DNA of 64,000 nucleotides. Source: Thermoplasmata archaeon (GTDB taxonomy: Archaea; Thermoplasmatota; Thermoplasmata; Thermoplasmatales; Thermoplasmataceae). The translations under genes were made by a program, and so were the position numbers. Shown one piece after another: positions 5,498-27,509 of this stretch. The stretch spans positions 1 through 64,000 of the forward strand of contig JAJZJR010000002.1 in the NCBI GenBank assembly GCA_021810045.1. The letters run 5' to 3'. Below the pieces are notes generated by a model that saw only the letters and a list, made by a program, of their open reading frames with translations, made no database searches and was not told the DNA's origin. Each line of letters begins with the position of its first letter. Position 1 is the first letter of the stretch.

Positions 5498-6112
5498 CTA
5501 AACCGGCGTGGTCACTTCCGGAATCCATCCAAGTGAGGCTGGAAGAAAAACCGAAATAAGGTAGAGGCTGAGGTGTAAAGTTGCGGCCAGGTAAAAATTC
5601 TTTCTAAAGTAGTATAACACACCGTAGACTATTGCCATGCTGAAGTTGTCTATGATGAAGAGTTCTAGAAAAGCTCCGGGATATCCAGTTGGATAGAAAA
5701 AGATATAGCTGGCATAGAAAATTGAGTAAAGTACGCCCTGGATTACTATGGACTGCCCAAAACTGAATCTTCTCCTAAGAAAAGTGATTATCAGGAATCT
5801 GAAGTTGAACTGTTCCAGAAACACTGGATAATAGGCCGTCTCAAAAACGTAAAGAGGGCCGTTATTCGTCGCTGCAAAGATAAAAAGCCAGATAAAAATG
5901 GCTGATATCAGGATTATTAGATCCTTATTGAGCAGTACTTTGTAAATAAGTCCTCTTACGTCCTTGAAGTAAACAGATGATAAAAGAAATAGAAGTGGAG
6001 TTAGCCCTATGTAAACATAATAATACAGTGTTCCAAGCTGGATGAGATAAAACATTGCAAAAATTGCGAACTCGAAAACAAATGGCAGAAGCTTCTCCAA
6101 CCTGGGACTCAT
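5498..6112 (-). CDS. CPBP-like polytopic membrane protein, last gene of the oxidase operon
   Basis: The 204-residue protein has about six hydrophobic spans. FLEQFNFRF at 99-107 resembles the EExxxR motif of CPBP (CAAX protease / bacteriocin-processing) intramembrane proteins, but the second glutamate is Gln101; a lone His180 sits in the last span. The usual FxxxH histidine is not evident. It may therefore be an inactive or altered member. Its ATG abuts the stop of the upstream 488-residue gene with no gap, so it belongs to the seven-gene terminal-oxidase operon, where it could help assembly. Confidence 0.6.
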   Translation of the reverse strand: MSPRLEKLLPFVFEFAIFAMFYLIQLGTLYYYVYIGLTPLLFLLSSVYFKDVRGLIYKVLLNKDLIILISAIFIWLFIFAATNNGPLYVFETAYYPVFLEQFNFRFLIITFLRRRFSFGQSIVIQGVLYSIFYASYIFFYPTGYPGAFLELFIIDNFSMAIVYGVLYYFRKNFYLAATLHLSLYLISVFLPASLGWIPEVTTPV

Positions 6113-25694: not shown

Positions 25695-26408
25695 ATGGAC
25701 ACCAAATTACTCTATTTTGAAGATCAGTATCAAAAGGAAGCCACAGGAAAGGCAGTGTGGCATGAATTCACCGATTTGATAGTTGATCAGACAATTTTCT
25801 TTCCCACCAGTGAAGGACAGCCCAACGACCGAGGACATGTATATATTGATGGAACAGAGTATATTATTGTGGATACCTGGTCTGATGGCGATAGTATCCA
25901 TCTGATGTCCCACGACACTTTCCCGGACGATGTGAATGGAAAAGAAGTAAAGCAGGTACTGGACTGGGATGTGAGATATATCCACATGAGATTCAGGACT
26001 GCACTTAAGATACTCAGTGGTCTTGCATATAAGCTATATGGTGCAACAATGAGGATAAATCAGACCTATGACGATACTGCCTGGGTAGATCTGGAACTGG
26101 ATGAGATTTCCCAGGAACAGGTGGATCAACTCTTCGCTGAAGCCAACAAGGTTGTTAAAACCAATGTCGATACAGGATTTTCGTACATTGCCAGAGAGGA
26201 TTTCCTGAAGAATGATGAACTGATGAAGATCTGCAAGGGAAGAGTGCCGGATTATGACAAAATAAGGATACTCCACCTAAATGGAATACCCGACCAGATG
26301 GAATTCGGCACCAATGTTAAAAATACAAGTGAAATTGGCGAGATAGAATTTAAGACCAATCTTGTTAAGGGAAAGATCAGCAGAAGGATAAACATAACCT
26401 TGAAGTGA
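25695..26408 (+). CDS. AlaX-like alanyl-tRNA editing homologue lacking all zinc ligands
   Basis: The 237-residue protein aligns along its length with AlaX / AlaRS editing domains: PTSEGQPNDRGHV (37-49), HMRFRTALKIL (97-107) and FGTNVKNTSEIGEIEF (204-219). Active AlaX binds zinc through HxxxH and CxxxH. Here those positions are Arg101, Lys105, Glu203 and Asn207, so every zinc ligand is replaced while the surrounding sequence is kept. It may be an inactive tRNA-binding paralogue or have another mechanism. The start is a clear ATG with a TATA-like TATTTAAG some 15-20 bases upstream, fitting a near-leaderless message. A membrane protein follows 12 bases downstream. Confidence 0.82.
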   Translation: MDTKLLYFEDQYQKEATGKAVWHEFTDLIVDQTIFFPTSEGQPNDRGHVYIDGTEYIIVDTWSDGDSIHLMSHDTFPDDVNGKEVKQVLDWDVRYIHMRFRTALKILSGLAYKLYGATMRINQTYDDTAWVDLELDEISQEQVDQLFAEANKVVKTNVDTGFSYIAREDFLKNDELMKICKGRVPDYDKIRILHLNGIPDQMEFGTNVKNTSEIGEIEFKTNLVKGKISRRINITLK

Positions 26409-26420
26409 GGTGAATTTTTA

Positions 26421-27509
26421 ATGCCCGGAAAGGATGAAAGAAGGACACCTGGAGAGTATATTCTGATCTACTCCGGATTAGCTCTCATTTTTATCTCCTT
26501 CATCACCTTCCTATATCTTATAATACCAGACATTACCAACCCTGACAGGATAACTGCACTTGGGGATCAGGTTTCCGGTTTTTCAGGGATATTTTTCAAT
26601 ACATTTGCAATTTACGCAATAATCTTTTTCATACTTTTCTTTTCCACATTCGCTATATTTTCATTGTTCTACAGAAATGAGAAACTCTCAATGGGTTTCT
26701 CTGAGGAAAGAAACAGGAAATTTTTCGGATGTCTTATGATCTATATACTTGTGCAGCTGATACTTTCTGAAGTCGTATCTTATTTCGCTCCGCAGTATTC
26801 CAGCGAATTTCCATTCAATCAGCCTGTGCCAATACAGAACTTTATTCTTTCATATCAATCCTTGCTGGAGGCTGCACTTTACGAGCTTCTTCCGATTACC
26901 ATTGCCGCCGTAATTCTAAGCAAGATTCACGGTACGCCTTTACTTGAGGGACTTAGATTCTATAAGATGAATGCTGCTGAAAAGCACGTTGTCTCAGTAG
27001 TAATCTCAGCAATAGCATCTGCTCTTGTTTCTACAACGCCTATGGAATTTATTACTGCATTCTTCTCTCTTCTTGTACTGAATGAGATTTTTTTGAATTT
27101 TGGTTTTTTAAAAGCTTTTCTGGCAAACTTTTCAGTTGAACTTCTGAATATTGCACTCATAGTAACAAAAAACAATGAAGTAAGTATAGTACTTGCCTTT
27201 TTCCTGTTTTTCCTGGGATTTCTTGGCGTATATTCTCTTGTCCAGATGGGCGTGAGAATCCCTGGTGAACGACCTGATGCTTCTATTCCGGATTCTGCTG
27301 ATAACACTCATCAACCACCAAATGCAAGAAAGGCAATCCAGATAGAGCCCTTTATAAGGAGCAGATGCCCAGAATGCGGCCAGGCAACTTACCACATAAT
27401 TCTTCCAAATATGGACATGCAGTGTGCTAAATGTGGTCATGAGCTTGACAGAAACGCCATCGGTGAAACAAATATAGTCATCGATATGAGATCTCCTTCC
27501 AAATTTTGA
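26421..27509 (+). CDS. CPBP-like membrane protein with C-terminal zinc ribbon
   Basis: The 362-residue protein has about eight spans in the first 270 residues. YQSLLEAALYELLPITIAAVI resembles the CPBP region in position but lacks the full EExxxR motif. The cytoplasmic tail carries a zinc ribbon, CPECG ... CAKCG (about 315-340). The fusion is unusual. It follows the AlaX-like gene by 12 bases, with a GAGGTGA ribosome-binding site across the gap, and ends one base before the convergent MFS gene. Function unknown. Confidence 0.65.
   Translation: MPGKDERRTPGEYILIYSGLALIFISFITFLYLIIPDITNPDRITALGDQVSGFSGIFFNTFAIYAIIFFILFFSTFAIFSLFYRNEKLSMGFSEERNRKFFGCLMIYILVQLILSEVVSYFAPQYSSEFPFNQPVPIQNFILSYQSLLEAALYELLPITIAAVILSKIHGTPLLEGLRFYKMNAAEKHVVSVVISAIASALVSTTPMEFITAFFSLLVLNEIFLNFGFLKAFLANFSVELLNIALIVTKNNEVSIVLAFFLFFLGFLGVYSLVQMGVRIPGERPDASIPDSADNTHQPPNARKAIQIEPFIRSRCPECGQATYHIILPNMDMQCAKCGHELDRNAIGETNIVIDMRSPSKF

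Follow-up and report, generated by a model that had tools for sequence, protein, structure and literature searches.

The window, as the whole 64,000-nucleotide stretch that was analysed is called here, carries a gene for a homologue of the editing protein AlaX-M whose zinc site is lost. A second gene, c1, encodes a putative membrane protein; its start codon lies 12 bases past the alaX stop codon. The features of the two genes are collected in Table 1.

Table 1. Features of the alaX and c1 genes, with positions in the window
Feature	Position	Strand	Description
Zinc-less AlaX-M homologue	25695..26408	+	237 aa; ORF, NCBIfam AlaXM, AF2, Foldseek
R101 codon (AGG)	25995..25997	+	Column of first zinc His (AlaX-S His9); Arg in 36/36 orthologues
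K105 codon (AAG)	26007..26009	+	Column of second zinc His (AlaX-S His13); K/F/R/Y in orthologues
R120 codon	26052..26054	+	AlaX-S Thr30 column; Arg in 36/36 orthologues, Thr in 53/55 zinc AlaX-M
E203 codon (GAA)	26301..26303	+	Third-ligand column; Glu/Asp in all orthologues
N207 codon (AAT)	26313..26315	+	Fourth-ligand column; N/Q/H/D/Y/L and others in orthologues
Partner gene c1	26421..27509	+	Predicted 8-TM protein with C-terminal Cys4 zinc ribbon; degenerate CPBP (Rce1-like) homologue
c1 zinc ribbon CPEC...CAKC (C316, C319, C335, C338)	27366..27434	+	Four Cys invariant in 21 homologues

An earlier sequence-only reading of this DNA described an intact gene that keeps the AlaX framework. The 237-residue frame is indeed open, and its product matches the NCBIfam AlaXM profile with 176 bits (E 1e-51), short of the equivalog cut-off of 300 bits. 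This shortfall is a weak sign on its own because the zinc-bearing AlaX-M proteins of the order mostly also fall below the cut-off (~230-324 bits). The Pfam tRNA_SAD cut-off is not reached either (12.4 vs 24 bits). Structure prediction, which the reading had proposed as a check, gives a confident AF2 model from 12 sequences (mean pLDDT 92.5, pTM 0.89). In Foldseek searches the top match of this model is the AlaRS editing region 2zzg (E 7e-21); the AlaX-M structures 9iuw (E 8e-18, TM 0.77/0.86) and 2e1b (E 2e-16, TM 0.76/0.83) are also matched. The fold is thus that of a full-length AlaX-M, and model and profile match together bear out the AlaX framework.

Alignment with AlaX-M, AlaRS and orthologues places R101, K105, E203 and N207 at the four zinc-ligand columns, as first proposed from the sequence. 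The columns can be tied to a solved structure: residues 97 and 101 of L078 (G000:C53:14377-15084), the zinc AlaX-M of the window's genome, correspond to query columns 101 and 105 and align with residues 9 and 13 of 1v4p (AlaX-S), which are zinc histidines (PMC3680381). The protein has no HxxxH plus C(or D)xxxH zinc site, and the full ligand set is absent from every one of the 36 orthologues. Histidine is found at position 207 in four of the 36, and at 101 or 105 in none. All 28 zinc AlaX-M proteins from genomes that also carry the zinc-less protein have H/H/D/H at these columns.

The suggestion that all four ligands have been replaced holds for the three histidines but not for the third site, where an acid is retained. 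This column contains Asp rather than Cys in 55/55 zinc AlaX-M proteins of the order examined, and likewise Asp in L078 (ADGGTH or similar); consequently, the third position has changed only from Asp to Glu/Asp. We infer that both zinc and editing activity are absent from the AlaX-like protein. Among Thermoplasmata AlaX-M proteins generally (L038-L092, L133-L152) there are two types, with Asp (DGGTH) or Cys (PCAGTH) at the third ligand; the former does not fit the textbook motif CxxxH.

Metal might still be bound by other residues, for example H97 together with D/E203 or with N-domain acids and H69. H97, which sits one helical turn before R101, is present in 35/36 orthologues and H69 in 36/36, and position 203 is always acidic. 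However, among the 55 zinc AlaX-M proteins 53 also have H69 and 33 have H97, so these are not replacement ligands, and R101 would occupy the middle of such a site. Both histidines were rejected as candidates because they are not clade-specific, and an alternative metal site is very improbable.

The gene is widespread in the family of the window's genome, which is probably Thermoplasmataceae. An orthologue is found in 35/35 family genomes that are at least 90% complete, and in 69 of the 77 family genomes overall, together with one 60-residue fragment; the remainder are incomplete genomes. No such protein was found in the other 256 genomes of a 300-genome draw from the class; the highest score among them is 186 bits, and complete family members reach at least 313 bits. 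The zinc-less clade is monophyletic (support 100/100), and the tree gives no supported placement of a sister group within AlaX-M. Since the gene is present in all 35 of the near-complete genomes, loss of the zinc site predates the diversification of the family.

The stem branch of the clade is long, at 1.22 changes per column, and other pocket residues have changed as well; the earlier impression of little other decay was therefore mistaken. The long stem and the loss of three histidines could be read as signs of a decaying, functionless duplicate. This has next to no likelihood and is refuted by a frame that is open in all complete family genomes, by dN/dS of 0.014-0.091 where dS is measurable, indicating strong purifying selection, and by 35 columns that are invariant among orthologues of down to ~50% identity. 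A recent lesion or sequencing error is ruled out by dN/dS and by the orthologues, none of which regains the ligands (R101 in 36/36, no His at 105). Neither recovered ligands nor substitute ones having been found, family-wide retention and low dN/dS mean that selection for a new role, as the sequence-only reading suggested, is well supported.

In the zinc-less clade, the N-domain has taken over from the editing domain as the more constrained part. Across the 28 genomes that carry both proteins, mean pairwise identity of the zinc-less protein is 0.59 in the N-domain and 0.49 in the editing domain, whereas the values for zinc AlaX-M are 0.45 and 0.56. Columns conserved at 95% or more number 27 in the N-domain and 22 in the editing domain of the zinc-less protein, vs 10 and 35 in zinc AlaX-M. 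The N-domain forms the most conserved surface (EFTD27, N44-D45, W62, D64-G65, H69, S72, D74-T75), and its clade-specific invariants include E24-F25-T26-D27, W62 (34/36), D64, S72, D74 and T75. This swap is the strongest sign that function has moved to a new surface.

The pocket itself has also been rewired. Residues invariant in the clade, with the zinc-clade state in brackets, include R101 (His), R120 (Thr), T124 (Ile/Leu), W130 (Arg) and P199 (Asp). R120 stands at the column of AlaX-S Thr30, the residue that reads the serine side chain; as a result, the pocket should now accommodate either an anionic group or a second protein. Binding of an anionic ligand in particular is rather unlikely. 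Judging by the fold, R101 would face D/E203, and there is about as much reason to accept as to doubt that the two form a salt bridge joining helix and strand in place of zinc. L078 also has Arg at query column 120, where 53/55 AlaX-M proteins have Thr, and its editing specificity may be unusual for this reason.

Such a pocket might belong to a metal-independent enzyme that runs another reaction through Arg101, Arg120, Thr124, Tyr125 and D/E203, such as the hydrolysis of an aminoacyl or anionic substrate or a transfer reaction on it. A number of the invariant residues surrounding the former catalytic site are polar and specific to the clade, and if R101 and R120 did no more than fill space in the structure, they would not need to be identical in all 36 sequences. 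However, columns 105 and 207 drift freely, and the editing domain is both less conserved than the N-domain and poorer in columns of at least 95% conservation than in zinc AlaX-M, which is the opposite of what is expected if a new active site lay there. An enzyme of this kind is consequently unlikely.

The genome of the window also encodes the other editing proteins sought as a check on the earlier reading: a zinc AlaX-M and an AlaRS with an HHSSTH plus CGGTH editing site; ThrRS is present too. In two genomes of the window's genus (G002, G004) the AlaX-M copies, L088 and L092, differ from the rest of the family's copies and do not group with them in the tree, perhaps due to replacement by transfer. 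No zinc AlaX-M was detected in genus g3 (G007, which is 96% complete, G025 and G310) or in G328; in these genomes the AlaRS editing site is intact, and they appear to depend solely on cis-editing by AlaRS.

These four genomes bear on the possibility that the protein is a tRNA-Ala-binding decoy or a regulator of AlaRS or zinc AlaX-M, which protects or presents Ala-tRNA. Its AlaX-M fold comes from a tRNA-binding lineage, and the ligand-less AlaX domain of Plasmodium TrpRS has been proposed to aid tRNA binding (PMC3680381). Against this, all four genomes keep the zinc-less gene, so a role that depends on zinc AlaX-M is disfavoured and was rejected as the main reading. In addition, there is no conserved link to alaS, the neighbour being c1 instead, and the protein is acidic (net charge ~-9 on average, pI ~5), which does not favour general RNA binding. 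A decoy or regulator is thus quite unlikely.

The pairing with c1 is new here, as the earlier reading mentioned no partner gene. c1 adjoins alaX in 21/21 neighbourhoods, 20 of them found by clustering and one divergent copy by eye, and the pairing persists where the other flanks (folC-like, Orc1/Cdc6, MFS, L10e) differ. By coordinates, the two genes lie within ~1.4 kb of each other in 43 of 44 genomes. The exception is G025, in which they are on different contigs and transposase-like fragments lie 3' of alaX. In two Thermoplasma-like genomes c1 is adjacent to alaX yet on the opposite strand. The membrane part of c1 evolves fast: once the closest genomes are set aside, identity is 22-38%, looser conservation than a tight partner would lead one to expect. 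Direct contact between the two proteins is still somewhat favoured.

c1 has eight predicted TM helices, read from AF2 helices of low confidence, and its ribbon is predicted to be cytosolic from the distribution of loop charges as judged by eye. Pfam and NCBIfam searches with c1 returned zinc-ribbon noise alone, and Foldseek gave no significant match. Since the c1 model (pLDDT 61) is too weak for Foldseek, homology was shown by profile comparison. With the TM part only, without the ribbon, comparison to CPBP gives a probability of 97.5 (E 7.9e-12, 148 columns), and 150 block-shuffled controls gave zero matches.

A profile search with c1 also finds distant homologues in other Thermoplasmata. Two of these, from sister families, were tested and match Pfam PF02517 (Rce1-like) with E 4e-12 and 2e-11. 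The EExxxR motif, the FxxxH-type His, HxxxD/N and the C-terminal ribbon are kept in 15 aligned homologues from other families or orders. All aligned c1 proteins of the family have lost EExxxR, FxxxH and HxxxN/D as a set while keeping the ribbon cysteines. Homology of the TM part and loss of the motifs together show c1 to be a pseudo-CPBP protein, a protease homologue without protease motifs. A c1 confined to the family was rejected, as distant CPBP homologues occur elsewhere in Thermoplasmata, away from any AlaX; none was found near them in the neighbourhoods read.

Many Thermoplasmata have CPBP (Rce1-like) proteins that end in a zinc ribbon (L168-L182), and some of these (L174, L181) carry an extra N-terminal ribbon. 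In family f5, most ribbon CPBP genes share a set of three neighbouring genes on the opposite strand. The window contains another small CPBP-type membrane protein at 5498-6112 on the minus strand (PF02517, 24.6 bits).

The explanation that is preferred, with modest confidence, is that the protein is an ancient and functional pseudo-editing paralogue of AlaX-M, rebuilt for binding and most likely working with c1. In such a scheme an AlaX-M paralogue would have lost its catalytic zinc at the base of the family. R101 and the retained acid D/E203 would replace the metal, probably through a salt bridge between the helix and strand that the zinc once joined. R120 would change the substrate-reading site, so that the pocket might now take an anionic group or a protein, and the N-domain would become the newly conserved binding face. 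c1 would anchor the soluble AlaX-like subunit at the membrane or read it out there, as a sensor or adaptor. It is a tentative extension of this explanation that the two pseudoenzymes constitute a membrane-bound sensor or adaptor, co-inherited in the family, which may connect aminoacyl-tRNA or ribosomes with the membrane; any tie of the AlaX-like protein to tRNA or ribosomes is slightly more doubtful.

No published report of the zinc-less clade was found in the open-access literature. If the explanation is true, this is a free-standing pseudo-AlaX fixed in a lineage, in which the path from an editing enzyme to another role can be read. The pseudo-CPBP neighbour provides a concrete, testable partner and may point to a new membrane-linked function in archaea. 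The automatic label 'alanyl-tRNA editing protein' is probably wrong for the zinc-less clade.

The protein shares with AlaX-M (P. horikoshii 2e1b, P. furiosus 9iuw; NF040865) the fold, the domain order, GQPND and the helix of the HxxxH column. It differs in that three His ligands are gone, Arg stands at the Thr30 column and GGGQP is one Gly short.

Foldseek also weakly matches the AlaX-like model to mitoribosome chains (E ~1e-4). These chains are mL39 (MRPL39; PDB 4v1a, 3j7y and others). The likeness is that a pseudo-editing-domain fold is kept for a structural role; in contrast to the AlaX-like protein, mL39 is derived from ThrRS and built into the mitoribosome. MRPL39 faces the membrane and is located close to the polypeptide exit (PMC4099522); as an analogy for the soluble half of the pair it is only suggestive.

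For the membrane half, SpdC of S. aureus is an 8-TM regulator of the Abi/CPBP fold that acts by partner binding (PMC5854430). The fold match of c1 (model pLDDT 61) to SpdC in Foldseek is not significant (E 0.2). Both proteins are of the 8-TM CPBP type, c1 as a CPBP homologue with its motifs lost; a zinc ribbon at the C-terminus and an adjacent AlaX-like gene set c1 apart.

In the AlaX-like domain of apicomplexan TrpRS (Pf-WRS AXD), the four ligands are replaced by Asp, Ser, Asn and Val (PMC3680381). Like the protein described here, it is a degenerate AlaX for which binding rather than editing has been proposed (PMC3680381). It differs in being fused to TrpRS, in its short AlaX-S type and in its replacements. 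In contrast, the zinc-less protein is a free-standing AlaX-M with its own set of invariant arginines and a membrane partner gene.
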